From positions 1 through 23,170 of IMG/VR virus record IMGVR_UViG_3300042991_000128: a DNA stretch of 23,170 bases; one strand, written 5' to 3'. This document shows positions 2,838 through 20,776 of this stretch, in pieces. The DNA comes from a virus. The notes beneath the pieces are model-generated. The model was not told the origin of the DNA, ran no database searches, and saw only the letters and a program-made list of their open reading frames with translations. Each line of letters opens with the position of its first letter. The stretch's first letter is position 1. Both the position numbers and the translations under genes were made by a program.

Positions 2838-3791
2838 TCAGAAGTACCTCTGCACGTAGTCCACGCCAAAGGCTGTCTGCACCGGCCGCGGTGCCACAGC
2901 TACGGGGGCCTCCCACCCGATGGGGTACATCACGTTCGTTGGGATTAGGACGGCGGGCGCTCCTGCAACTTCCCAACTGAGCTGGAAGGAGTAGCGATTG
3001 CGCCCGCGATTCGGGGAGAAGTTTTCTACCCGTATATTGATGATCTGTCCTGCCGTCCACTCAAAGAGACCACTACTACGAATCGCAGCGTGATTCACCC
3101 AGTCGTCAATGATCGGAACACCATTGGCGAAGAACCGGCACCCGTCATCGGAATTGAAAATTATGCGGTAGGTCGCAGTCAGCGGAATCTTGAAGGACCC
3201 GCGTGCCAGTACGGAGATGTCCTGCTCATTGGTGTGCCAGTTGGGGAGCAGGTCCGGGCTGGCAACATCCGCACCAAGCACACTAAGGTTACGCACATCC
3301 TGCCGCACGGCGCTCCCAGACAATGAGAGGTTGGTGTACACCCCGACAGCTAACCCAGTGCCTGGTAGGGCGTAATCTGCGGGCACTTCACCACCCGCTG
3401 GCTCGGTCGTGCCAGTGAATACGCTACCTAGCGTAGCCCAGCCTAGCCACCTAGTAGCGTGGTCGGCCCCAGGTGGCGTGGTGTTGATGGCAATGTAGCG
3501 CCTGCCCGTGGCTACATTGTCTTGGGTTACGGGGCCAATCTCTAAGGTCAGCGCTGCCGGCGGGTTTGGCAGGGCTACTGCGGTGCCATCCAGGCCGTTA
3601 ACGCGGTCCCAACTCACGGCGGCTACACCGATAAGCGTGGTGGCTGCACCCTTCGCCGCATCGGTGACGGCCTGATTTGCGTCGGAGATGTTAACGAGCA
3701 TGCGGTAGGCAGCTCTCCCACCCAGCGTATAGGCGACATCCGCCTCGTCAATGAAGGCTGCGGTGTGCAGCGTAACTGGAACAATCGCCAT
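2838..3791 (-). CDS. PA14-like domain protein, possible virion surface or receptor-binding protein
   Basis: 317 residues. The first 180 residues are rich in A, T, G and V with no recognised domain and include short stretches typical of phage fibre or decoration proteins. From about 195 to 275 the sequence follows the PA14 fold: TATYRIIFNSDDG, CRFFANGVPIIDDW, then TAGQIINIRVENF and YSFQLSWEV. PA14 domains bind glycans or proteins in toxins, adhesins and glycosidases, so attachment to the host surface or to the capsid exterior is plausible. A structural role is inferred from its position just upstream of the portal. The start ATG is one base after the stop of the 62-residue gene upstream. Confidence 0.65.
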   Translation of the reverse strand: MAIVPVTLHTAAFIDEADVAYTLGGRAAYRMLVNISDANQAVTDAAKGAATTLIGVAAVSWDRVNGLDGTAVALPNPPAALTLEIGPVTQDNVATGRRYIAINTTPPGADHATRWLGWATLGSVFTGTTEPAGGEVPADYALPGTGLAVGVYTNLSLSGSAVRQDVRNLSVLGADVASPDLLPNWHTNEQDISVLARGSFKIPLTATYRIIFNSDDGCRFFANGVPIIDDWVNHAAIRSSGLFEWTAGQIINIRVENFSPNRGRNRYSFQLSWEVAGAPAVLIPTNVMYPIGWEAPVAVAPRPVQTAFGVDYVQRYF

Positions 3792-4061: not shown

Positions 4062-6467
4062 TCATATAAAGGCGTAAAGCGAGTCCTTTACATGAGATAT
4101 GTCCAGATTACCCTGCTCTGGCGGCGGTTCCAGTCCGCCAAGGGCTTCTTGCAGTTGTGACAGTACATCGTTCTCTGCGTAGAGCTTTACGAACTGCTCA
4201 CGTACTATCTCACCCAGGCGACCCGCGTCTGCCGGGTGGGTGCTGAAGCTGTCGTGTACAAACCCTAAGCTGTTAATGCCTTCCTGCTGGCAGGCTACTG
4301 TCACCATGTGCAGGTGCGCAGCATCCAGGCTGTGCACGAAGTTCGGGGCTAAGGCTGTAGCGTGCTGACGCTTGTCCGTTTCGCTACTCTCAACGGCCAC
4401 ACGAATATGCGCTGCTCCATGCAGCCAAGTCCTCACGCGAATGATGTCTGCTTTGTAGTAGGCTTGCGTGGCTATAAAGCCACTAGGCGTGGTCCACGTC
4501 AGTACGCGCTGCTTCAGTGAAGCAGCCCTACCTAGCCTACGCAGGAACTCTCGAACCTGCATCGCCGCCGGTAGCGCTTTCGCCAGGGCTGGCCAGCCCG
4601 CATCCATTAGAACGCGGGCGCGGCCCAGGCGCTCTCCCGGGCGACTGTCCGGCATCTCGCCAGCTAGGTAGTCTGCGGCTACGTAGCGCACGGCGCTATC
4701 CTTTGTCACACCGTAAGGCAGCGTCATAGTGGCGCGCTTCATGGCTAGGCGCTCTACGCCCTTCTCCATCCACCACTCCTTGTCCGGTCCATCAGGCAGC
4801 CCGGGCAGAAGGGTCTGCGTGACTTCGGCTACTCCCCTGTAAACATCCTCTTGCTGGGGGCCCGGTATGAGGTTGACCTTGCGCCCGCCAACCTCGTCAC
4901 GCAGCATGGCTGCGAAGTGCTGCAGGCCGTTGCATGACCCGTCGAGGGCCACGCGGATGCGGCTGCGGTAGCCGCTGGGGTCTCGCTTCCAGTCTGCTAC
5001 CTCGAAGCACCATGCTAGGAACTGCAGGGGCTCTTCCGCGTCTCTCCAGAAGCCTACCGTGCCAACAGGGTCATCCGCCACTACAGCCGCGCGGGGGAGG
5101 TAGGCGCGCGCCCAGCTCAGGCGCTCGGGTAGCGTAGCTTTTTCTACTCCGTTGCCCCAGGTGTTAGCGCCCTGCAGTAGTAGCCACTTCTCTCCGTGCT
5201 CCCCTAGGGGCTTTGCTTCGGAGAACTCCAGTAGTGCCTTCTGTAGGTCGCTACCCTGCGGGCTTAGACCAGAGCTGAGCGCGTAGTCTCTCCCCCGGCT
5301 ATCCAGGAAGTGCACGAAGTACAGGTTTGCGTAGTCCTGTAGCTGTAGTGCCTGTCGAGTGGCCCGGTAGAAGCGCCCATGCTCTACAGTGCCTAGCCGC
5401 TGCGATTCGTAGAATGCCCGGCAAGCCCCCTTCCAGGCTGCCAGAGCTGTTTCCTCGTCGTGCCCTAGGGGTGTACCCTCCGGGCCTGTAAGGGGCGGCC
5501 TGGGGGGCTTCTCGTGGCTTGTAGGCGCATAGGCCCCCGGCACTCCTCCTGCACTCTTGCTTAGTTCCAGCGCGGTCTGCAGAACGCGGCGGTTCACTCG
5601 CCATTGCGTAGCCTGAAGATGGTTTACGGCCCCCAGGACTATAGGCATGGGGCTGTCCCTCAGCAGCGGACGTGCAGAGGCAGCGGTCTTCACCAGGTAG
5701 CGGTGTGCACGGCGCATCTCCGCCGTGTGATAGCCGCCACCTACCATACCAGTCCATGGCAACGGCGGCTCAACGCACGGCCCGTAGTCTGGTCTAGTCT
5801 CCGCGAGGAACTCAAAGCTAGCGTCCAGGATGCCTCTGGCCGCGGCGCTCAGGGCCACCTCGCGGTAGGCCTGGCGTCCTCGGCCGGAGGTGAATGGCTG
5901 GGACACCTCGATCAGGCCACACGTCTCCAGGCGCCCCAGCAGGAACACACCCACTACGTCACGACTACCCTTGTCCCACTCCGCCCATGAGGCCCCGGCC
6001 TCAGCGGCCTTGACCTTGTACACCGCCATTCGGTGCTCCTCGTCCTCGGACATGCGGCGCTGGAAGTCACGCGCAAGTGTGTAGTGTAGGTCCGGCAGGG
6101 CCTCAGCGATCTGGCTTAGCACCAACTCATAGTGAATGGAGCGTCCTATGGCGTAGGACAAGGCGCGGTGGTTGTGCGCCTTTCCACCGAGGATGGCGTT
6201 TAAGCACGAGCGCACGGCTAGGAAGGCCACGCTCGTGGCCTCCAGCTTGCGAAGTAGTGTCAAGGCGTTGCCACCCCGCAGTGGAGTAGGGTGAGCGTAT
6301 AGGTCCACTAGCATCTCAGCCAGTGGGGCGGTGTAGTTGCGGTGTATGGACTGCGCGTAGGGGTTGCGGTGGGCCTTGCCCTTGCTCTCGGCTTCACCTA
6401 CTGCCGCCTCCAGCCGGTTGCGACCGGCGAGTAGCATCCTGCGCTCCAGCTCGGCCTGAGAGTGCAT
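4062..6467 (-). CDS. DNA-directed RNA polymerase, single-subunit phage type
   Basis: 801 residues from ATG at 6467 (MHSQAELERR). This start is chosen because it overlaps the upstream stop as TAATG and because the longer open frame before it has shadow-type, arginine-rich composition. Family hallmarks are present: motif A VALDGSCNGLQHF with catalytic Asp509, motif B KRATMTLPYG with Lys577 and Tyr585, motif C FVHDSFSTHPAD with His738-Asp739, and FVHSLDAAHLHMV before it. T7 RNA polymerase has 883 residues, so this one is about 80 shorter, mostly in the N-terminal promoter-recognition half. It ends YAFI, compared with FAFA in T7. It would transcribe the late genes that follow; its promoters are expected in the adjacent gap. 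Confidence 0.97.
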   Translation of the reverse strand: MHSQAELERRMLLAGRNRLEAAVGEAESKGKAHRNPYAQSIHRNYTAPLAEMLVDLYAHPTPLRGGNALTLLRKLEATSVAFLAVRSCLNAILGGKAHNHRALSYAIGRSIHYELVLSQIAEALPDLHYTLARDFQRRMSEDEEHRMAVYKVKAAEAGASWAEWDKGSRDVVGVFLLGRLETCGLIEVSQPFTSGRGRQAYREVALSAAARGILDASFEFLAETRPDYGPCVEPPLPWTGMVGGGYHTAEMRRAHRYLVKTAASARPLLRDSPMPIVLGAVNHLQATQWRVNRRVLQTALELSKSAGGVPGAYAPTSHEKPPRPPLTGPEGTPLGHDEETALAAWKGACRAFYESQRLGTVEHGRFYRATRQALQLQDYANLYFVHFLDSRGRDYALSSGLSPQGSDLQKALLEFSEAKPLGEHGEKWLLLQGANTWGNGVEKATLPERLSWARAYLPRAAVVADDPVGTVGFWRDAEEPLQFLAWCFEVADWKRDPSGYRSRIRVALDGSCNGLQHFAAMLRDEVGGRKVNLIPGPQQEDVYRGVAEVTQTLLPGLPDGPDKEWWMEKGVERLAMKRATMTLPYGVTKDSAVRYVAADYLAGEMPDSRPGERLGRARVLMDAGWPALAKALPAAMQVREFLRRLGRAASLKQRVLTWTTPSGFIATQAYYKADIIRVRTWLHGAAHIRVAVESSETDKRQHATALAPNFVHSLDAAHLHMVTVACQQEGINSLGFVHDSFSTHPADAGRLGEIVREQFVKLYAENDVLSQLQEALGGLEPPPEQGNLDISHVKDSLYAFI

Positions 6468-6703
6468 TAGCCCCGACCGCCCTGCTCCTGTGTCTCTCCC
6501 TGCATGTGCAGAAGGATTTCCCTGGAGAGCCAGCCGAGTCCCATGAAGCCTGGCCACGCTCGTGTCACCTCTACAGGAACCAGCTCGTTCAGTGCGCGTG
6601 CAAGGGCAGGGGTGAGCAGTGTGATGTCGTCCTGGGCCGACTGTCGGCGCATATCCAGGGTGCTGTAGAGGCTCTCGTCCTCGTTGGTCCACGGCGTCAG
6701 CAT
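6467..6703 (-). CDS. Small hypothetical protein between ligase and RNA polymerase
   Basis: 78 residues, acidic N-terminus (MLTPWTNEDESLYSTLDMRR), a helical middle and a short glycine/glutamine-rich tail (QGETQEQGGRG). Not recognised. It is accepted because it exactly bridges ligase and RNA polymerase: its ATG overlaps the ligase stop as TGATG, and its stop overlaps the polymerase start as TAATG. One hydrophobic stretch (PGFMGLGWLSREILL) is too short and interrupted for a clear membrane segment. Confidence 0.7.
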   Translation of the reverse strand: MLTPWTNEDESLYSTLDMRRQSAQDDITLLTPALARALNELVPVEVTRAWPGFMGLGWLSREILLHMQGETQEQGGRG

Positions 6704-7650
6704 CAATCGCTCTCCTTCTTGTCGTATCTCCAGCCCTTAAAGCGGGGCTCGCGTAGATTCCCATCCGGCGTGAAGCCCATGGCCTCCACCTCGAAGATGA
6801 GTCCCACGGGGCTGCGCACAGTAGGGTCATTTAGGCAACGCCAAAGGCTCTCGCGTTGCTTGTCGGAGAACCCGGTGCCGACGGTGCCAGTCTTGCCGTC
6901 CTTGGTTGCGTAGCTTAGATACCCTAGCCGCGAGGAATGCTTGCCCTCCTGGCCCAGGCCGCCGCCCGTGCACCGCACGTCTAGAGTGATCTCGTTCTTG
7001 AACTTTACGGCCTCACCCCCTGTGGCCCGCTTGTCCAGTAAAGGCAGGCCGTGTAGGTCCCACAAGACAATGCCATCGTATCCAGGCCCCATGGTACGGG
7101 CCACCTGCTCTGGGGTGTCGTTGGGCCCAAGCACTAGAGTGTTAGCCCAAGCAATGTGCGTGCGGTCATTGCCTTCTGGCCCCCGTGAGTAATACGCCAG
7201 CTCCCGATAGCGGTCAAGCCGTTGGTAGTACGGCTGCTCGGCGAGATCACGCTCTAAGTATACCATGTCAAACAGCCGGAACTGAAAGTCCCAAATGGTC
7301 GCCCGCTGCTGCCTGAAGTCGCCGCTTATCCTGGATTGCGCGCAGTCATGCCGCCACACTTCACCAGCCAGCATTAGCGGGGTGCCATCCCACCCGTAGT
7401 CCCCCAGGGCGACACTCAGCTTGTTAAGAATGCCCTGGCACGAGATGCTGTAGTCCTCTCCGGTGCGGCTAAGCATTCGTGCCTCTGTGCCCCTCTCGAA
7501 CACCGCTAGGCCGCAGACGCCATCGTACTTGGCAAGAGCGATGCGGTCAGGCCTCAGAGCGAGGGTGGTTGTGCTCGGGTGAGCCTTCTGGAAGGCCTTG
7601 CTGGTGGCATCGTACTCACAGGGGCGTGTCAGTGGGAGGGTATGGCTCAC
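6703..7650 (-). CDS. ATP-dependent DNA ligase
   Basis: 315 residues, similar to the 359 of T7 ligase. The nucleotidyltransferase motifs are visible in order: motif I AKYDGVCG with the adenylated Lys41, motif III LFDMVYL near residue 128, motif IV YDGIVLWD, and motif V EAVKFKNE. An OB-fold-like C-terminal part follows and ends in a tryptophan/lysine-rich tail (FKGWRYDKKESD). The enzyme seals nicks during phage replication and recombination. The start is GTG and overlaps the upstream stop as GTGA; the stop overlaps the next ATG by one base. The motif IV pattern YDGIV replaces the common EG(V/I)V form. Confidence 0.93.
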   Translation of the reverse strand: MSHTLPLTRPCEYDATSKAFQKAHPSTTTLALRPDRIALAKYDGVCGLAVFERGTEARMLSRTGEDYSISCQGILNKLSVALGDYGWDGTPLMLAGEVWRHDCAQSRISGDFRQQRATIWDFQFRLFDMVYLERDLAEQPYYQRLDRYRELAYYSRGPEGNDRTHIAWANTLVLGPNDTPEQVARTMGPGYDGIVLWDLHGLPLLDKRATGGEAVKFKNEITLDVRCTGGGLGQEGKHSSRLGYLSYATKDGKTGTVGTGFSDKQRESLWRCLNDPTVRSPVGLIFEVEAMGFTPDGNLREPRFKGWRYDKKESD

Positions 7651-12342: not shown

Positions 12343-13328
12343 CTAGATGGTCGCGCTAATGCGCTCGCGGATTGCAGGTACTCGGGAGAGCACAGAGGCA
12401 GGCACGTCGGATTCGTCGGCCATGCTGGGGCCCCACTTTATCTCAGCGGGGTAGTCGATCTCGATGTTCCATCCCAGCTTCTTCTTGATGACAGTGCTGG
12501 CTTCGAGGACACTGGCGTGCAGTACGCACGCAGCGCGCTCCTTCACATCGGGGTGTGCGTCCACGTAGAATGCGTCGTGGACTTGGTTGATGATAGGGGC
12601 CTTGTACCACAGGTCTGGCACCCTAGCCCACTCGTATACGATGACAGCCATTGCAGCCTTCGCCACCTCAGCTCCTCCGCCCTGCGCTACGTAGTTGCGG
12701 ATTTCCGTCGGGCTGAAGCTGGTGTACATGGGGTTCTTGGGACGGGTAGCCAGCCACTTTGGGCTCGGGTGCTCGCTGTACACGTACATCTTTCCGTCCG
12801 GCGTCCTGGTGTGCGACGTGCCGAGCTGGCACATCACGGTAGGCTTGTCCGGGTGCGGTAGGAAGCGGCCACCTGGTACGCGGTTGTGTTTGATGTCCTG
12901 CGTCAGGGCCTCGATGTAGGGCTCGATGCCCGGCCAGCGCTTCTGCTCGGCCGCGATCAGCTCCTCGACCGTCTCTACGGGCATTCCCGTGCCATCGGCG
13001 ATGGTCTGCGCACCGGCCCCATAGGCCCGGCGGAAGCTGAACACCTTGGCTAGAGTGCGCAACTCCTCACCCTCGTGGGTCTTGTCCGGGCCCTTCGCCA
13101 TTGCGTAGGCCTCGTCGTAGGTGATCTCCTTCCACGCGCTTAGGCGAACGCAGTGCAGGTCCAGGCCGGAGCGCAAGTCAGCCAGCAGCGCTTCGCAGCG
13201 CGATAGGTTGGCCTGCACGTAGACCTCCAGTGAGCTGAAGTCGTCCTGCAAGATGGCCCCATCGGGACCCCACCTGCTGGTGAACATCTGCTTGACCCGG
13301 CTCGTGCCTTCACGAGGTAGGTTCTGTA
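12343..13328 (-). CDS. DNA polymerase, family A, 3' exon
   Basis: Downstream exon, beginning at about 13328 and ending with TAG at 12343. It carries QNLPREGTSRVKQMF, the natural continuation of the 5' exon, then motif A (GAILQDDFSSLEVYVQANLS), the O-helix motif B RTLAKVFSFRRAYGAG (RxxxKxxxFxxxYG), and motif C INQVHDAFYVD with the catalytic aspartate. The open frame continues upstream to 13389, but that part is intron sequence and has no polymerase resemblance. Spliced to the 5' exon it gives about 817 residues, larger than the 704 of T7 polymerase. The O-helix phenylalanine is the wild-type, dideoxy-discriminating type. Confidence 0.93.
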
Positions 13329-14032
13329 CTTGTGTTCGGTAGCAGTCGTTAGGTGCTACCCGCCCTTGTGGGCTGCTGCATGTTCCCATGCAGGTCAGAC
13401 TATATCTTCACGCCTAAATGGCGTGCCGTGCGCTTCCACCCACTTGAGTGTACTCTCTTTCGAGATAGTCGTTGCGCCTTCAAGGAAATGATGCAACCGC
13501 ATGTGGTCACTCATTGTCAGCAAAACCAAGTTGTCGAACGCGTTGTTGTGTGTGTCACAGTCGCAATGGTGCACGTGCCACCCCGGGGGAATTGACTGCA
13601 GGCTCAGGTTCTCCGCCACGACATAGTGGTGGATGAAGATGTGCTTGCTGCCCTTCCTTCCTGTGAACCACACTGGCTTCAGGGTCACTAGGTAGCCCTT
13701 CCCGTCTTCCACTATGTAGCGGAAGTTAGGGTGTGCCTCACCTATCTTTCCAAACATCGGATTCAGCCCTCCCAGCTTGCTGTTTCTGTAGCTGGTACGC
13801 TTCCTCGTCAGGCGGAATTGCCTGGAGTAGTTCGACTTTACGTAGTTGAACACACGCTTGTATGGTGCCCCTACCTGGGCCGCAATAGCTCCCATAGTAA
13901 GCTCGGTGTTCTCATACAGGTACTTGATCTTGTCCACATGCACCTCCAAAGGTGGATTGGCTTGCTTGGCTCAGGATTGGCCGGTCGGGCTATCCCCTGA
14001 GTTCACACGGTTTTAGAACCCCCAGAATTAAA
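13329..14032 (-). ncRNA. Group I self-splicing intron in the DNA polymerase gene
   Basis: The intron is placed from a split conserved motif (TGRLTSSRPNL ends one exon; QNLPREG begins the next) and from RNA elements on the minus strand. P1: exon end GAACC(UU) pairs with GGGGUUC in the guide. P3: CCGTGTG (14010-14004) with CGCACGG (13432-13426). P4: CTCAGG (14001-13996) with CCTGAG (13975-13970), within AATCCTGAGCCAAG, a well-known group I Q-type segment. P8: CACGCC-ATTTA-GGCGTG (13425-13409). Then the hallmark AAGATATAGTCT (13408-13397). P9 hairpins follow: CTGCAT/ATGCAG and GGTAGCA/TGCTACC. I could not assign the 5' strand of P7. The ends are uncertain by up to 3 nt; all options give the same protein. 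Confidence 0.9.
13395..13937 (-). CDS. Intron-encoded HNH homing endonuclease
   Basis: 180 residues from GTG at 13937. This start is chosen because GGAGG (13947-13943) lies five bases upstream; the in-frame TTG at 13949 overlaps that site. Residues 1-45 form a helix-turn-helix-like segment (MGAIAAQVGAPYKRVFNYVK). The middle holds NPMFGKIGEAHPNFR, an NUMOD-like DNA-binding repeat. The HNH core is HIFIHHYVVAENL, then GWHVHHCDCDTHNN, then NLVLLTMSDHMRLHH. Such enzymes cut intronless copies of the target gene and spread the intron. The frame starts in the P6 region and its last codons cover P3', P8, J8/7 and the 3' strand of P7; the TGA stop lies within the core. Confidence 0.9.
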   Translation of the reverse strand: MDKIKYLYENTELTMGAIAAQVGAPYKRVFNYVKSNYSRQFRLTRKRTSYRNSKLGGLNPMFGKIGEAHPNFRYIVEDGKGYLVTLKPVWFTGRKGSKHIFIHHYVVAENLSLQSIPPGWHVHHCDCDTHNNAFDNLVLLTMSDHMRLHHFLEGATTISKESTLKWVEAHGTPFRREDIV

Positions 14033-15500
14033 GGTTCGGTCTCGACGAGGTGAGGCGGCCCGTGATGGCCGTCACCATGTTCAGCTCGCCGTGGATTAGC
14101 TGCGTGGCCTGGGCAACCAGTGTCAGCATGCCCTTGTATGTGCCAGGCTTCTTCGGGTCCTCGCTGATGTAGTAGGTGCCCAGGTCCTTCTGCTGCTTCT
14201 GCCATGTGGCAAACAGCTTGAGGAATTCTACCCCACTATGCTCCAGGGCCGCGACCACCTCGCTAGACGTGCTCCATACGCCCGGCACTTCGCCAGCCCA
14301 CTCGTCGCGGGGCTGCACCATGCGGGGCATCTTGTGCTCTACCGTAGTAGCCCGCTTCTTAGGCTTGTCCAAGTCGGGCACCTTGACCTTGGTAGTCTTG
14401 GGCTGGCCAGCGTTCTTGCCCCCGGTGTTGAGTAGCAGGGCCTTGCCCTCGGGAGGCTCTCCGTTCCACTCGGTATTGAGGCAGTGCTCCCACCACAGCA
14501 CGTCCACTGCGGTGCCATCCACCAGCTTGTAGGCAGGTAGCTCCTTAGGGGTGTACTTCTGCTCCCAGCCAGCGGGCTTCTCTCCGTCACGCTCGGGGCA
14601 CCACCAAGCCTCGACGGACGACAGGGGGTCCCGCGGTTCGTCTTGCACGGTGCCAAGGTACTCGGTGGCCGCGTAGGGGATGATCCCACCGAACAGCAGG
14701 GCGGAGCGCTGCTTTGGCGAGCCCCAATTGAACTCGAATGGTAGGCCCTCTACGTGCTTGCTCAGCTTGGCTGTCAGCTCAGCGATTTCCACCTCCAGCT
14801 CAGCGGCGTGAGCCTTGCCGATGGTGGCGTCGCAGTGGATGCCCCACAGCTTGCACATGACGGCGTAGGCGTAGGCCCTCATGTTCATGATGAGCAGGGG
14901 TAGCATGCTCATCTGCTTGGCCTTAACCCACTGACCGCGGAACACGGTCAGGGTGTTCTGCACGTCTCCCGGTTCGAACAGCCCGGTGGATGGGTTGACG
15001 GCCCCCTTCAGGTATCGCGCCAGCAGCGGCTCGGGAATCTCCGAGGTGTTGACACCCTGCTCCCAGAGGGCCTTCACCTCATCATGCTTGAGCTGGCCGC
15101 CGTATCGAACGCTCACCTCGTCCAGGCTCAGCATGGCGTGCTCCTGACCCTGACCGTTGAGCAGGAACTCAGCGAGCTGGCAGTCCCACAGCATGCCGCC
15201 ACCGGATAGGAACAGCCGGAAAGCCTCTTGGTTGCCCGGTTGTCCAACCATGGCGTGCATGAGGTCGAACTTGATGTTGAAGCCCGCGACGAAGCGAACG
15301 TTGTCCAGCACCGGGCTCAGCCAGCCGTCGTGTGGGCGCGTGGCGTTATAGCGGTAGGCCGCAGCACTCTCTGGGGCCCCAGTGTCCAACCATGCGTCGC
15401 ACACCACGTAGTTATCAGGGTGCCACGGGTTGGCCTTCTGGCCCCACAGTTCCGCGGTTTGCGTCTCGCAATCCCACGCTCTGCACAGTACCGCCGTCAC
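14033..15500 (-). CDS. DNA polymerase, family A, 5' exon (3'-5' exonuclease and thumb)
   Basis: Encodes residues 1 to about 490. The exonuclease domain is intact at its first motifs: RAWDCETQ (Asp10, Glu12) and FVAGFNIKFDLMHAM. The exon ends at VTAITGRLTSSRPNL, the conserved family A segment just before the palm; without splicing the frame meets TAA at 14030. The start is GTG at 15500. It is weak in Shine-Dalgarno terms but overlaps the stop of a 47-residue gene as GTGA, and an in-frame TGA at 15530 excludes any start further upstream. The polymerase copies the phage genome together with the nearby helicase and primase; it may recruit host thioredoxin as T7 does, but I see no proof of that. 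Confidence 0.93.
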
Positions 15501-15846: not shown

Positions 15847-17172
15847 TCAACCCCCTGAGTGGTCACGGAAACGGGAACGGTCGAAGTCAAAGCTGACCTC
15901 AACGCGCGGCGACTTGGGGCGCCCGGTGCGCGCTCGCTTGTTCTTGCTGGTGCCCACATAGCGGGACTTCTCCAGATCGGGGTCAGCTACGCGCCCCAGC
16001 GTGATAATCACATCAGCAGCGCCCTGCTTACCCACTCTACTGTCCTTGAGCTGAGTCTGGGCTGGATACGGCTCATAGCTGGCATCTCCGTTCACCTGGG
16101 AGGTGGCGATGACTGGGAACCCACTGCCAGTACCACCCCCCGTAACAGCTAGCTGCCGGGCCCATTGGTACTGGGCTTCCAGGGCCTGATCGGTGCGTTC
16201 TCCCTTGGCGTGTCCACTGAAGGTCACGTTGTCGATCATGTCGAACACAACGAGTCCAGGGCGGTGCTTGCGAACCAGCCGCTCCACTTGGCCTGAGTCC
16301 CAGCCGTGTACGCTCATGACGCGCAGCACACCCATACGCCCGCCCATGGCCAGCTTGTACATCTGGCGCAGCATGGTCTTGCACTCAGCATGCTCGGGGT
16401 CGGCCGGCTGCTGACTCAGTGGGATCATCTGTTCCAGCGTGAGGTTCAGCGAGGCCTGCCACGTGCGCTCCACGATGCGGTCAGAGTCTCCCTCGTTGTT
16501 CAACCATAGTACGTCCCGGGGCTCTCTGTAGAACACGGAGAGCTGCGGAGCGATGTATGTCACATTGTCAGCCAGTGCTGAGGTCTTGCCAGCATCCACA
16601 CCAGCAGCGAAGATGTAGAAGTCCCCGGGGCGCATGGGCTTGAGGTTGTTGTGGATGCAGGGCCAGCGCCACTGTAGTCCCTCGTCGTTTGCACTGGCAG
16701 TGAGGATGTCTGTTATATCCGTCAAGCACTGCGCGTCCTGCTGACCAGCCTGGGCCCACTGATCTACGCGCTCGTTGGCTGCCCGCGTCTCTGCTAGTAC
16801 GTCGATGTCCTCCCCAGCGGCGTAGCGGTCCCCTATGGTTTGGAGATCAAGCGCTAGGCGAGCCTCTGCCAACCTAGGGATCAGGGCATCGTGGGAGTTC
16901 GGCACCGGAGTAGAGAATGCCGTAGTCAGCGCACTTGTGAGCAGGCTACGCCGGTCGTCGTCCAGCCTCGGGTGCAGCATTTGGAAGTACGGTATGAACA
17001 CCTCGGCAGTGAGTTGCTGCATACCAGGGTGTTCCTTGAAAATCCTCCCGTAGGCTGTAAGGATGGTCTTGGTAGTTTCCTGGAGTGCCCCGCGTGGCAC
17101 TCCTTTTCCAAGGGTGCTGTACGCGGCGCGACTGCGTAGAATCTGGAGCAGCGCTACGTCAAGATGTGCCAT
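15847..17172 (-). CDS. Replicative DNA helicase, DnaB / T7 gp4 C-terminal type
   Basis: 441 residues. An N-terminal helical region (1-160) is followed by the RecA-like core. Walker A is AGVDAGKTSAL (around 190-200), Walker B LVVFDMIDN (Asp311), and a sensor-like segment PVIATSQVNGDAS lies further on, followed by GAADVIITLGR and basic loops for DNA contact. In T7 the helicase is fused to primase; here it is a separate gene 21 nt after primase, as in phiKMV-like phages. The ATG has a GGAG site seven bases upstream. It would unwind the fork as a ring hexamer on the lagging strand. Confidence 0.92.
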   Translation of the reverse strand: MAHLDVALLQILRSRAAYSTLGKGVPRGALQETTKTILTAYGRIFKEHPGMQQLTAEVFIPYFQMLHPRLDDDRRSLLTSALTTAFSTPVPNSHDALIPRLAEARLALDLQTIGDRYAAGEDIDVLAETRAANERVDQWAQAGQQDAQCLTDITDILTASANDEGLQWRWPCIHNNLKPMRPGDFYIFAAGVDAGKTSALADNVTYIAPQLSVFYREPRDVLWLNNEGDSDRIVERTWQASLNLTLEQMIPLSQQPADPEHAECKTMLRQMYKLAMGGRMGVLRVMSVHGWDSGQVERLVRKHRPGLVVFDMIDNVTFSGHAKGERTDQALEAQYQWARQLAVTGGGTGSGFPVIATSQVNGDASYEPYPAQTQLKDSRVGKQGAADVIITLGRVADPDLEKSRYVGTSKNKRARTGRPKSPRVEVSFDFDRSRFRDHSGG

Positions 17173-17193: not shown

Positions 17194-17967
17194 TCAGTGC
17201 CTGGTAAGCGATGATACCCTCCTTCGTATGGTCGCGGCATCCAGGTACTTTGGGTCCTGGTCGCTGGGGTGCGTTAACATGATGCGGCTGTCTAAGCCTA
17301 TGGCGGCCAGACGACTGTTGCCCTTCAGGGCCATGCGCTGGCCGGCCGCGTCCGGGTCAAGCCACCATATAACCAGGGGGGACTCAGCCGCCCGTGCCAG
17401 TACGGCTGGACTGGGTAGGGTGCCGAGGCACGGTATAGCTGCTACCGGGGCGCCGCTGAGGCCGATCTTGGCAGCACTGAGAATGTCCTCTGTGAGCACA
17501 CACGGCAGCTCGCCATTATCTAGCGACCCCAGGGTTGGGTGGATGTACTCTTGAACACAGTGCTGCCTCCCGTACAGCCCGGATAGCCACTTAGGGCGTG
17601 TGTCGGCCGCTCGTTGCATAGGGTGAGATACAGCTCGCGCAGTCCAAAAGCCCCCATTGAGTGGGAAGATGATGCGCTGATGGCGCTCGTTCCAGTAGCA
17701 GCGGAAAAGTTGCTCGCGCTCATAGCGGCCAAATCCTAGGGCCGCAAGCCACGCTACCGCATGCCCAGGCCAGGGGTCTCCAACATCCGGCGGGCAAGCG
17801 CAGTCTTGTCTTGGTTCCTGCGCTGGCGGGCGTAGCGTAGGCTCAGTGGGCTCCCACAGTGAAGCCCCGCAGCGAAAGCAATAAGTGCTAATGCCATTGT
17901 ACTTAACCTCCCTAATGGCAGACCTATCCGCCCCGCAGTGACTAACGCGGGTTTTTACAGTGCCCAC
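17194..17967 (-). CDS. DNA primase with Toprim domain, N-terminus possibly incomplete
   Basis: 257 residues from GTG at 17967; an in-frame TAG at 17973 forbids an earlier start. A zinc-binding part (SHCGADRSAIREV, STYCFRCGAS) is followed by the Toprim fold: CVLTEDILSAAKIG with the catalytic glutamate (around 157) and WWLDPDAAGQ with the DxD pair (around 202). It would make lagging-strand primers. T7-type primases use four cysteines (CxxC...CxxC); here only three are in this frame, with Val8 where the first cysteine should be. A second frame just upstream encodes VVCGHCKNPR, so a frameshift or damage next to the cassette array is possible. The Shine-Dalgarno signal is weak. Confidence 0.85.
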   Translation of the reverse strand: MGTVKTRVSHCGADRSAIREVKYNGISTYCFRCGASLWEPTEPTLRPPAQEPRQDCACPPDVGDPWPGHAVAWLAALGFGRYEREQLFRCYWNERHQRIIFPLNGGFWTARAVSHPMQRAADTRPKWLSGLYGRQHCVQEYIHPTLGSLDNGELPCVLTEDILSAAKIGLSGAPVAAIPCLGTLPSPAVLARAAESPLVIWWLDPDAAGQRMALKGNSRLAAIGLDSRIMLTHPSDQDPKYLDAATIRRRVSSLTRH

Positions 17968-18093: not shown

Positions 18094-18148
18094 GCATAAC
18101 TAACGGTTCGAGCCGACCGAGTACGGCGGCTCAACTCGAACGTTAGGC
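18094..18148 (-). mobile_element. attC-like recombination site A
   Basis: On the plus strand it runs from GCATAAC through an imperfect palindrome to GTTAGGC, a perfect GTTRRRY box. On the minus strand this reads GCCTAAC, a perfect RYYYAAC box, and the TAA in it is the stop of the 88-residue gene. Inner arms GAGCCG and CGGCTC pair; the outer arms TAACG and CGTTA pair. The CGGCTCAACTCGAACGTTAG arm (18128-18147) is close to the L'/R' arm of class 1 aadA-type attC sites. That likeness suggests plus orientation, whereas the genes suggest minus, so orientation is unresolved. Confidence 0.82.
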
Positions 18149-18409
18149 CTGCTCAAACACATGGAACACCGACGAGCCGGCATGCATCTGGTACGTGTCC
18201 ACGAATCGACCGCCATACGTAACCTCGGGCATCGGGTTGCCGGTGCCGTAGGTGGCAAAGGTTCGCGGCGTGGTGGGCGCATTATCATCCACCAACGCCC
18301 ACAGTTGCGGCGCACCGCCCTGCATCTGCACGCTCAGCACCTGGGCGCCTCGCGGCATCTGCACTTGTTGCAGGTCGGTCACTTGTAGGGTCCATTTCCA
18401 AATTCGCAT
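18143..18409 (-). CDS. DUF7352-like hypothetical protein
   Basis: 88 residues. The sequence follows a small family often seen in phages and prophages: IWKWTLQVTDLQQVQMPRGA, VLSVQMQGGAPQLWALVDDN, RTFATYGTGNPMP, and a final VFHVFE. Its function is unknown. ATG at 18409 has AGGAG six bases upstream. It overlaps the gene before it by 31 nt, so both form one cassette-like unit. Its TAA stop lies in the GCCTAAC box of attC-like site A, the pattern seen in integron cassettes. Confidence 0.75.
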   Translation of the reverse strand: MRIWKWTLQVTDLQQVQMPRGAQVLSVQMQGGAPQLWALVDDNAPTTPRTFATYGTGNPMPEVTYGGRFVDTYQMHAGSSVFHVFEQA

Positions 18410-18711
18410 GTTGTGCTCCTGGCCTCGCTATGCTCCAAACCGTTCAGGTGCTCCAGCACTTCTGTGTAAAGCGCATGCCGCGCCTTAATCACGTCGTCAT
18501 CAGCACCCCAGTGCGCGGGATGCGAAAGCATGTTCCGGCACCGCATCAGCAACGTGCGCGAATCCTTGGCGCCCTGCGCATACGCTGCACGAATCTGCTG
18601 CACCGTGTACAGCTTGCGCCCCGTGGCAGTCTCGTATCCGGGCTCAGGCAACGCCTGCCCTGGCTTGTAAACGGCGCCCTTGTGCGGTTTGAATCTGTCC
18701 AACCAACTCAT
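18379..18711 (-). CDS. Hypothetical protein
   Basis: 110 residues from ATG at 18711 (MSWLDRFKPHKGAVYKPGQA). This start has GGGGAG six bases upstream; the longer open frame would begin inside attC-like site B. The protein has a segment RKLYTVQQIRAAYAQGAKDS and a helical C-terminal half with HPAHWGADDDVIKARHALY. Not recognised. It begins 19 nt after the GTTAGGC box, so it is the first gene of its cassette and is followed by the DUF7352-like gene in the same unit. Confidence 0.65.
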   Translation of the reverse strand: MSWLDRFKPHKGAVYKPGQALPEPGYETATGRKLYTVQQIRAAYAQGAKDSRTLLMRCRNMLSHPAHWGADDDVIKARHALYTEVLEHLNGLEHSEARSTTCEFGNGPYK

Positions 18712-18729
18712 GTGGTACTCCCCAGTGAT

Positions 18730-18802
18730 GCCTAACTGGTCGCTCAAGGCGACCTCCTACGGGCCTGCGGCCATACGTCGGCGCCTTGGCCCGGCGTTAT
18801 GC
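18730..18802 (-). mobile_element. attC-like recombination site B
   Basis: 73 nt bounded by GCATAAC (minus strand 18802-18796) and GTTAGGC (18736-18730). Arms GGGCCAAGGCGCC and GGTCGCCTTGAGCGACC are mutually complementary with mismatches, as attC stems are. The TAA of the left box is the stop codon of the gene starting at 19123 (codons GCT GCA TAA). This site is longer and less like sites A and C, so it is not a simple duplicate. Confidence 0.75.
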
Positions 18803-19123
18803 AGCACCGGAAGCTGCCTGCCGCTGCCGGCGCACTTCTCCGATACTGATGCCGCGCCTTTTTGCCTCATTGCGTACCGTTTCAACCGTAGCAGGTGGCG
18901 GACTGTTGATGTGAAGAGGCGCATTGGCGAGCCTAGCGTATGCAATACATCGGCTCCTGAACCGCGGGCATCCGGTACACATCAGACCACCCGTGGCGCT
19001 GTGGATACCGAGCGCGATCAAATCGACAGCGCCTTCTTTGAACTGTCCGCAGCCGGCGCGCAAGTAATCTGTTACCGTGTACGGTTTGGTTTGCTTCGGC
19101 TGCAATTTGTCGTTGTGATGCAT
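18797..19123 (-). CDS. Hypothetical cassette protein with cysteine cluster
   Basis: 108 residues from ATG at 19123 (MHHNDKLQPKQTKPYTVTDY), with AAGGG seven bases upstream. An ATG eight codons earlier lies inside attC-like site C and has no ribosome site. The middle holds GLMCTGCPRFRSRCIAYARL, a CxxCx6C pattern that may bind metal, and the end has a possible helix-turn-helix (VRNEAKRRGISIGEVRRQRQ). Not recognised. It stands alone between attC-like sites C and B, and its stop is in site B, so it is the cleanest single-gene cassette in the array. Confidence 0.65.
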   Translation of the reverse strand: MHHNDKLQPKQTKPYTVTDYLRAGCGQFKEGAVDLIALGIHSATGGLMCTGCPRFRSRCIAYARLANAPLHINSPPPATVETVRNEAKRRGISIGEVRRQRQAASGAA

Positions 19124-19143
19124 TTCTTTTCCCTTGTGGTGCC

Positions 19144-19201
19144 ACATAACTAGCGGGTCGAGCCGACCGAGTACGGCGGCAGTTCAGCTCACACGTTAGG
19201 G
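19144..19201 (-). mobile_element. attC-like recombination site C
   Basis: 58 nt. The plus strand runs from ACATAAC to GTTAGGG, the second with one mismatch to GTTRRRY. It shares an identical 23-nt core with site A (19158-19180 here, 18108-18130 there), while the flanks and the second arm differ. Arms GAGCCG and CGGC pair in the same way. The shared core suggests common origin of the sites; the diverged arms argue against a recent tandem copy. Confidence 0.7.
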
Positions 19202-19348
19202 CGCTCGCACTTGCCCACGGCCGCAAAGCACAGGCGGAAGTCGCCCAGTCCCAGCGCGCCACGCATCGCGCCACGCCTCGAACGGCTTGGGCTCCGGTCA
19301 AGTATCTGACAGGCGCCGCAGGGCGTTGAGTAGATCGCTGCTGTTCAT
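19189..19348 (-). pseudogene. Possible broken small cassette gene
   Basis: ATG at 19348 overlaps the stop of the gene before it (TAATG) and encodes MNSSDLLNALRRLSDT before TGA at 19298. The same frame goes on with natural composition (PEPKPFEAWRDAWRAG), then another frame takes over with LGLGDFRLCFAAVGKCERPN and stops at 19189, inside attC-like site C. One stop plus one frameshift would explain this as a decayed gene of about 50 codons. Alternatively it is a 16-residue peptide followed by spacer. Confidence 0.35.
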
Positions 19349-19563
19349 TAGCCTTCCCTCCACGCAAACAACGTGCAGTGTGCGGTAGATTGAACGGCGA
19401 ATTCGCCAATGGCGCACCATTTGTTTTTCTCTTTCATGTACGTTTCGCCATGGTTCCACCCAGGCAATTCGACAAACTTACTGCTGTAGTGCTTGCACGC
19501 ACGACAGCATGCCGGCTCTTGGCGGTAGCCTTGTGCTACCTTCGCTTCGTCTTGTTTGCTCAT
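19348..19563 (-). CDS. Cysteine-rich small hypothetical protein
   Basis: 71 residues from ATG at 19563 (MSKQDEAKVAQGYRQEPACC). The start is chosen because it overlaps the preceding stop as ATGA; the longer open frame upstream is a shadow of that gene. Cysteines are arranged as CCRACKHY, WCAIG and HCTLF, a likely zinc-binding arrangement, with the segment NKWCAIGEFAVQ between. Not recognised. It shares a cassette-like unit with the gene before it. Confidence 0.62.
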   Translation of the reverse strand: MSKQDEAKVAQGYRQEPACCRACKHYSSKFVELPGWNHGETYMKEKNKWCAIGEFAVQSTAHCTLFAWREG

Positions 19564-19934
19564 ACTGCTTGATCCTTCTTGCATGTGCTCGACATCGGCA
19601 GCATCTGGGCCGCAATCGCGCTGCTCTCGCAATTGTGCAGAGTGAGCACAGCGCCGTTCCGGCCTTCGACGCAGAGCACAAACGCGCGACCCTCGGCCAG
19701 CGCCTCGCGCAGTGCCGCGTCGATGTCCTCAAGCGCTTTCGGCACGGCTGGCAGAGCGTCGGGCTCAGTCAGCGCATAAAGCGGCTGCCATCCTGGCGCT
19801 GCCCGGGATGCCATAACCCCGTACCCGCCGGAGAATTCGTAGTCTTGCACCAAATACCGGTAGTTCGTGTAATCGCCGATGGCATAACCTGTTGGGATGC
19901 GCTTACTCATCCACGCGACAAGTTGCAGTTTCAT
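19560..19934 (-). CDS. Hypothetical cassette protein
   Basis: 124 residues (MKLQLVAWMSKRIPTGYAIG). AGGGG lies six bases before the ATG. The N-terminal half is rich in tyrosine and glycine (YTNYRYLVQDYEFSGGYGVM), the middle has an acidic helix (KALEDIDAALREALAEG), then FVLCVEGRNGAVLTLHN. Not recognised. It is the first gene after the degenerate site D and is coupled to the cysteine-rich gene by ATGA. Confidence 0.62.
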   Translation of the reverse strand: MKLQLVAWMSKRIPTGYAIGDYTNYRYLVQDYEFSGGYGVMASRAAPGWQPLYALTEPDALPAVPKALEDIDAALREALAEGRAFVLCVEGRNGAVLTLHNCESSAIAAQMLPMSSTCKKDQAV

Positions 19935-19940
19935 TCAAAC

Positions 19941-20024
19941 CCCTAATTTCCGCGGAGCCTCAACCCAGAAGCCACCAACGGGGCTGTAGGTTCTTTCTGG
20001 CGGTTACTTTGGCTAGCGTAAGAC
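19941..20024 (-). mobile_element. Degenerate attC-like site D
   Basis: Plus strand boundaries CCCTAAT and GTAAGAC each differ by one or two bases from the attC boxes. Complementary arm pieces AGCC/GGCT, AACC/GGTT and CAGAA/TTCTG lie in matching order. It stands where a cassette junction would be expected, between two gene groups. It could be a decayed attC or only a hairpin. Confidence 0.42.
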
Positions 20025-20041
20025 ATTCTGCGGCAGTACGG

Positions 20042-20224
20042 CTAAGCCCGCTGCCTATCGAAGTACCCCGTAGGCGTAGTACGCCTGCTCTTCCGTTCTA
20101 CGAGTAGGCCGTTGAAGAACTGCCTGGGCGGGTTCGCATCCAGGCAGTTGTGCTTGCACAGCGCCGGCCAGGCGCTGTTGACCACCCGCCCGCAGTTCAG
20201 GCACGTGTTGCGACCGTTCTTCAT
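20042..20224 (-). CDS. Small zinc-finger-like hypothetical protein
   Basis: 60 residues (MKNGRNTCLNCGRVVNSAWP). Cysteines in CLNCG and CKHNC make a compact four-cysteine zinc knuckle within the first 30 residues; the remainder is basic and polar. Not recognised. Its ATG overlaps the stop of the 46-residue gene as ATGA, and GGTGG lies three bases before the ATG. Confidence 0.55.
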   Translation of the reverse strand: MKNGRNTCLNCGRVVNSAWPALCKHNCLDANPPRQFFNGLLVERKSRRTTPTGYFDRQRA

Positions 20225-20361
20225 TCTCCACCACCGAAGGTCCCCGCAAATAGCTTTGGCCCAAGCGTCTGCCTACGGCGTCGCGGATTCCGCCTCGATG
20301 TCCACCTTCCCTGGCACACCAGCCAATGCTTGACGGTAGCCGCTTTGTGCCCCTTGCTCAT
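20221..20361 (-). CDS. Small basic hypothetical protein
   Basis: 46 residues (MSKGHKAATVKHWLVCQGRW, then TSRRNPRRRRQTLGPKLF). Strongly basic in the middle. Its start overlaps the stop of the gene before it, and its stop overlaps the start of the gene after it, both as ATGA. This double coupling is the main reason to accept it. An alternative frame over the same bases is open too but lacks these contacts. Function unknown. Confidence 0.42.
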   Translation of the reverse strand: MSKGHKAATVKHWLVCQGRWTSRRNPRRRRQTLGPKLFAGTFGGGE

Positions 20362-20534
20362 GCTCGCCGCCAGCACTGCGTGGACACGATCTTCAATCCC
20401 GCGCTTGTCGCGTTAATCGCTTGGGATATAGCACTGCCATACTCCAGGCAGTGCGAGTACTTCTGCTGCGCTTCTACAGGGAGGTCGAGCGCAACGGCCG
20501 CCCCATTTGAGAGCACGAATATGACGGCCCACAC
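20358..20534 (-). CDS. Small secreted or membrane-type hypothetical protein
   Basis: 58 residues from GTG at 20534, with GGAGGG six bases upstream. The N-terminus (MWAVIFVLSNGAAVALDLPV) reads as a signal peptide with a possible cleavage after AVA. The mature part has two cysteines (SHCLEYG and TQCWRRA) that could form a disulphide. A periplasmic role, for example a superinfection or lysis modulator, is conceivable but unproven. The longer ATG-started open frame would overlap the gene before it by 70 nt and lacks a ribosome site. Confidence 0.5.
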   Translation of the reverse strand: MWAVIFVLSNGAAVALDLPVEAQQKYSHCLEYGSAISQAINATSAGLKIVSTQCWRRA

Positions 20535-20536
20535 GG

Positions 20537-20776
20537 CTAGCCCTCCAGCAGCGCGAGGGCTGCCTTCTCGGATGCAAGGCCAGGCTCGCAGTTGCGGAAC
20601 GTCCACCGGTCGAAGATAGTCCAGACGCCGTTGACGAACTTCACCGTATAGCGCGGAGTGGGTCGAGTAACCGGCCGCAAGGCCTCAACGCTGAGCCGTT
20701 CGGCCTCGCGCAGGATGTTTTCGAGGATTTTGTTGTTGCTCAGGGCGAGCTGGGCAAAGGCGGTCTGAATTTGCAT
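20537..20776 (-). CDS. Hypothetical protein, first gene of the cassette-like block
   Basis: 79 residues from ATG at 20776 (MQIQTAFAQLALSNNKILEN), chosen for GGAG six bases upstream. A helical first half (ILREAERLSVEALRP) is followed by a beta segment RYTVKFVNGVWTIFDRW. Not recognised. It stops two bases before the GTG of the next gene, and with the next three genes forms one continuous set of overlapping small genes without an attC site between them. Confidence 0.58.
   Translation of the reverse strand: MQIQTAFAQLALSNNKILENILREAERLSVEALRPVTRPTPRYTVKFVNGVWTIFDRWTFRNCEPGLASEKAALALLEG

Follow-up and report, generated by a model that had tools for sequence, protein, structure and literature searches.

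A small cassette array with no integrase of its own lies immediately upstream of the primase gene of an autographivirid-like podophage, and we put at roughly 0.75 the probability that it belongs to a mobile phage pool whose genes run opposite to their attC sites and whose cassettes carry their own translation starts. The DNA analysed, referred to here as the window, is an entire IMG/VR record of 23,170 bases. An earlier note on this DNA had proposed integron cassettes in a lytic-type podophage, which the present analysis supports, although cassette clusters in virulent phages have already been published (Qi et al., 2023; PMC9892861). The note overlooked the inversion of the genes relative to attC, the wide viral pool with site-exact exchange, and the starts within the hairpin. 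A more ambitious reading, which we hold to be a little better than an even bet, is that phages have a pool of inverted integron-type cassettes of their own, distinct from the bacterial one, in which the attC hairpin is also a mobile translation-start module supplying ribosome-binding site, start codon and N-terminal leader, and that they use host IntI to move accessory and perhaps counter-defence genes from phage to phage.

The podophage and its cassette array

All genes of the record are co-directional, on the minus strand. They include genes for a single-subunit RNA polymerase, ligase, exonucleases, family A DNA polymerase, DnaB-like helicase, primase and head-tail connector, and their order (primase, helicase, polymerase, exonuclease, ligase, RNA polymerase, head-tail connector) is shared with KSC, Ptah and P26059B, which are autographivirids. 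The RNA polymerase (4062..6830, minus strand; phrog_414, E 1e-227) marks the record as autographivirid-type, and is closest in the annotated phage set to that of Curvibacter phage P26059B (41% identity); both features of the Autographiviridae type, this enzyme and a T7-like gene order, are thus present. The primase (17194..17967, minus strand; PF13155, E 2e-4), which matches phage primases, is directly downstream of the array and is its insertion neighbour, with the early genes upstream of it at 18-23 kb. Elsewhere in the record, the coding sequence of the family A DNA polymerase is spread over two ORFs (14028-15500 and 12343-13389, within 12343-15500); the interval holds an ORF for an HNH endonuclease (13395-13949; PF13392) and probably represents the insertion of an intron or homing endonuclease. 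A PA14 domain protein (2838-3791; E 1e-12) adjoins the RNA polymerase gene.

Sites were sought with a covariance model, R1, trained on 30 attC sites beside intI, in gene orientation, from 80 fetched bacterial intI loci. When checked on 184 sites in 52 bacterial loci, the 30 training sites included, it placed 183/184 on the expected strand. The orientation of attC was set by R1 throughout, as the sites are nearly palindromic and sequence likeness judged by eye is unsafe. Scanning the window with filters off yielded three attCs, each of which has its canonical orientation on the plus strand; the next best match was noise at 10.8 bits. The first, attC1 (18094-18148; 35.7 bits, E 3e-7; crossover between G18142 and T18143), forms the end of the array beside the primase, and the second, attC2, is at 18730-18802 (26.6 bits, E 5.6e-5; crossover between G18796 and T18797). 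The third, attC3 (about 19141-19202; 14.4 bits, E 0.058), is marginal alone; it is 90% identical to attC1 over 42 nt, and it is this likeness that makes it a candidate site. The fold of attC1 far surpasses those of its shuffled versions (z -3.8), while the folding energies of attC2 and attC3 alone are not outstanding against shuffles. A 23-nt core of attC1 recurs exactly in 8 other viral contigs, and attC2 matches an attC of another viral contig, L005, at 85% identity over 74 nt.

The covariance-model check suggested in the earlier note has therefore recovered three of the sites it described, one of them marginally. It had counted three good sites and one degenerate one, in an array spanning 18094-20776; the degenerate site has no R1 match, and support for the span extends to 19202, as nothing in 19203-20776 rose above noise with filters off. 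No Rfam family matched the window. Four other phage stretches, 188 kb together, gave R1 sites only in two phages that have published clusters.

Two cassettes are delimited by these sites. Cassette A extends from 18143 to attC2 and its boxes, GTTAGGC (18142) and GCCTAAC (18730), match perfectly; those of cassette B, from 18797 to attC3, are GTTATGC and ACATAAC, with one mismatch. The RYYYAAC and GTTRRRY boxes reported previously are thus borne out. Cassette A holds two genes, casA1 (18379..18747, minus strand) and a gene for an 88-aa DUF7352 family protein (18143..18409, minus strand; PF24043, E 2.6e-27; phrog_3848, E 9e-22), and cassette B holds one, encoding 108 aa with no Pfam or PHROG match (18797..19123, minus strand). 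Gene and attC lie on opposite strands here, minus and plus respectively, so the array departs from the usual, non-defining property that gene and attC share a strand with attC 3' of the gene. The last base of the TAA stop codon is the crossover base both for the DUF7352 gene (at attC1) and for the cassette B gene (at attC2). On the minus strand attC2 contains AGGAGG followed by TTG, in frame into casA1, which starts either at this TTG inside the site or at a downstream ATG (residue 13).

Relatives of casA1 occur as a cassette gene in the viral contigs L009-L014. It shares 87% nucleotide identity with L009, and in L009 and L010 the similarity runs from the R box onward with other DNA upstream, which indicates that the R box is a real cassette boundary. 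The 3' end of casA1 is unlike that of its relatives, so the gene has probably been truncated and joined to the DUF7352 gene. With a two-gene cassette and a truncated-looking casA1, the array in the window may be a decaying copy.

Neither TIGR02249 nor PF00589 has a match in the record, which is a fragment; the intI that defines a complete integron is thus absent from this fragment, in agreement with the earlier observation that no integrase is present. With attC1 and attC2 clear, attC3 marginal and all within 1.1 kb, the region contains the at least two sites (within ~3-4 kb) by which a CALIN, an integron-type cassette cluster without an integrase, is recognised, and its classification as a CALIN in an autographivirid-like podophage is supported. 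Any movement at these sites would presumably depend on the IntI of a host or co-resident element. An apparent IntI in L005 was rejected, the recombinase there being a phage-type integrase below the IntI cut-off.

The same locus in related podophages

Relatives of the phage were found by alignment of the DnaB-like helicase (15847..17172, minus strand; phrog_19, E 1e-49), which gave 80 related phage contigs. In 1.18 Mb around their helicases R1 detected no attC (best 16.5 bits, E 0.92), and the attCs of the window are therefore beyond what chance would supply. A search of viral_contigs with the primase peptide gave no close relatives, and a DNA-level search of the region against 50,697 phage records gave no match. 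Whether related phages lack the block, as the earlier note had asked, can thus be answered: the 80 loci are without an attC by R1, and one has half an attC.

That one is a 45-kb podophage contig (L126, identical to L142) with early genes resembling those of the window. At 7010-7511 it carries half an attC with a ribosome-binding site, an ATG and the leader MTEEPQGNAAVAGQLERGVR, which continues in frame into a gene of 160 aa. The half attC and this gene are directly upstream of the podophage primase, the same place as the array in the window, which indicates that attC-derived DNA has reached this place in two related podophages. The start of this leader also occurs in L005, L114, L116 and L119.

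These results bear on whether the palindromes could be ordinary phage hairpins, such as terminators or processing sites, that mimic attC. Inter-gene hairpins are common in phages, yet a model built from bacterial attCs fits the pattern of boxes, arms and bulges, with scores reaching 61 bits among viral contigs, and the related phage DNA yields none; we give this explanation practically no weight.

A viral pool of inverted cassettes

Viral contigs were gathered by the attC1 core, by casA1 and by a canonical half-site motif independent of genes. R1 matches 41/42 of the records, with sites on one strand per array and few exceptions. Orientation was scored from codon-usage gene calls between consecutive attCs after removal of duplicates. 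Confidently called viral cassettes (n=95, from 28 contigs including the window) carry their gene opposite to attC in 94 cases and on the same strand in 1, against 46 same and 7 opposite (7/53 inverted) in intI-linked bacterial arrays (Fisher p 1.4e-29, with the caveat that cassettes within one array are non-independent). Counted by contig, 28/28 with confident calls are majority-opposite. Protein families, an independent check, give the same picture, with matches to 15 Pfam and 76 PHROG families among opposite-strand ORFs and to 1 of each among same-strand ORFs. Lysobacterales chromosomal arrays chosen by the same attC motif have 11 same-strand cassettes to 1 opposite (with a loose cut); the motif is present in 5/398 Lysobacterales genomes, an occurrence that is no more than suggestive of a host in this order. 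One stretch scored as same-orientation (L007:1158-2453) was rejected as a clipping artefact, its gene being a minus-strand C5 methyltransferase.

Only one viral record, G037, has a true IntI (489 bits), and its cassettes are same-orientation. In this record, classed as viral, the stretch 37564-48222 (L123) has the IntI and 17 attCs beside phage genes, probably because the boundary of a prophage was drawn into a neighbouring bacterial integron. The record shows how the viral contigs at large might be misbinned bacterial integron fragments, or the window a chimeric assembly, the records being metagenomic and mostly fragments. We consider this very improbable. In the window, array and autographivirid replication genes form one continuous stretch, with all genes co-directional; terminase is found in 13/41 of the viral records and portal in 2 more, while IntI exceeds the cut-off only in G037; the orientation is unlike that of bacterial arrays; and the relative L126 has attC-derived sequence at the same site. 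As many records are fragments, the lack of terminase or portal in the others carries little weight.

Start signals within the hairpin were examined in the distinct viral attCs of at least 80 nt. A ribosome-binding site with an ATG, usually in frame with the gene of the cassette, is present in the loop on the gene strand in 42/72, and on the other strand in 1/72; shuffled loops gave a mean of 4.4 and a maximum of 9. Among Lysobacterales attCs of at least 80 nt, 0/19 have this combination on the corresponding strand. From the in-loop ATGs, 34/42 frames are open for at least 55 codons (0 and 4 for the other two frames). One leader peptide, MKHEDAQVP(P/L)ADAGRLETPVRP, heads different proteins in L103, L117 and L127. 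When three examples were folded, 2/3 were far better than their shuffles. Downstream, 35/97 genes in the viral set end at the crossover base, by far the commonest end position. If these signals function as they appear to, attC would have a new role, as a hairpin that serves both for recombination and for starting translation.

The inversion could also be functionless: a founder array may have entered one phage lineage backwards and spread, with only inverted cassettes expressed there. Bacterial arrays do contain an inverted minority, and since early operons are transcribed in one direction, only genes in that sense would be useful. We think this possible but doubtful, as the phages with arrays are dissimilar (podophage, RecE/RecT phage, SbcC-type and temperate) and the in-hairpin start signals show adaptation to the inverted orientation.

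Cassette exchange, proposed mechanism and known systems

Comparison of 141 viral cassette bodies showed exchange of whole units. The segment L006:3034-3390 is 100% identical to L119:172-528, including its own attC; the flanks are unrelated and the identity stops between G and TTRRRY. L125 is without exactly one cassette that L005 and L115 have, and L117 and L120 have common cassettes with sharp ends at the cut. Ends of shared blocks within arrays fall most often at the cut, usually no more than 1-2 bases off. Mobility as units bounded by the boxes is thus observed for L005, L006, L117, L119 and L125, and for casA1 at one boundary, the R box. Some shared blocks have their end at the opposite side of attC, where a plain IntI crossover would not place it, and the viral set has 77 pairs of near-identical attCs between unrelated bodies. 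Near-identical attCs likewise flank unrelated genes in bacterial arrays.

Homeologous or annealing recombination by phage RecT/Red-type proteins may therefore add to IntI. Taken further, such recombinases would do most of the shuffling, using the conserved attC arms as short homologies, with the role of IntI confined to the origin of the sites. Array flanks in L001, L005, L006 and L007 include helicase, RecE/RecT, exonuclease and SbcC-like genes, the array of L005 being beside RecE/RecT and those of L006 and L007 beside exonuclease genes; together with the near-identical attC pairs and some breakpoints in the R''/L'' arm, this would suit annealing. However, many breakpoints lie between G and TT within 1-2 bases, a cassette moves whole with its own attC, and across many phages the sites retain the boxes and the strand asymmetry that functional attCs have. 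We regard annealing as the main agent as unlikely.

The mechanism that we propose instead is IntI-based. An array would have been inserted in the early-gene block of an autographivirid-like podophage, just upstream of primase. IntI from the infected host or a co-resident element would fold and cut the attC strand and join it between G and TTRRRY. Comparison shows that phage cassettes, unlike bacterial ones, carry the gene inverted, such that attC is upstream of its gene and the gene strand would be the recombinogenic 'bottom' strand of attC. With the gene often ending exactly at the crossover base, and a ribosome-binding site and start codon in the loop of long attCs, each cassette could be a compact self-starting translation unit that may be dropped into a phage early operon. 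Inversion might be favoured because the site becomes part of the 5' leader. It might also be favoured, should replication proceed along transcription, by placing the recombinogenic strand on the lagging-strand template. Experiments on a Vibrio cholerae superintegron that had been inverted showed more excision when the bottom strands of attC were on the lagging-strand template (PMC11023631). There the whole array is flipped relative to replication, whereas in the phage cassettes each gene is flipped relative to its own attC.

The architecture of the attCs, their fit to the model, the unit running from TTRRRY through attC to G, and the similarity of attCs within an array are all shared with sedentary chromosomal integrons (Gamma- and Betaproteobacteria, 80 intI loci). 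The phage arrays differ from these in that no intI was found and gene orientation is reversed, and viral cassette bodies are shorter (median 354 versus 476 nt).

The closest known systems are the CALINs that Qi et al. (2023; PMC9892861) described in virulent phages, namely Tetrasphaera phage TJE1, Pseudoalteromonas phage PH101/H101 and Polaribacter phage P12002L; in that work IntI1 acted on 5/6 phage attC sites assayed. These too are attC clusters without an integrase. The suggestion that phages can take up and spread cassettes was thus anticipated in part, carriage having been shown there along with recognition by IntI1. The window array differs in residing in an autographivirid-like podophage and in its inverted genes; the cassettes of TJE1 are same-orientation, so inversion is common in phages and not universal. 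Qi et al. do not describe a common cassette pool with exact exchanges, nor attC-loop starts. Open papers searched, an incomplete coverage of the literature, describe no inverted phage cassettes or attC-loop start codons, and judged from sequence the inversion would appear to be new relative to the published phage clusters.

Virulent phages swap accessory genes rapidly without long homology. A site-specific cassette system with its own gene orientation, if confirmed, would provide a direct route for this and would link phage genomes to host integrons. Among the products encoded by viral cassettes are several DNA methyltransferases, a nucleotidase, RNA ligases, a primase-like protein and an Acb2/Tad1 hairpin domain; given the methyltransferases, RNA ligases, nucleotidase and Acb2/Tad1-type domain, counter-defence genes may travel by cassette. 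In phage H101 (PH101; L097, 31529-32987), weak attC matches lie on the strand opposite its genes, and this array may be an inverted one with sites already assayed by other workers.
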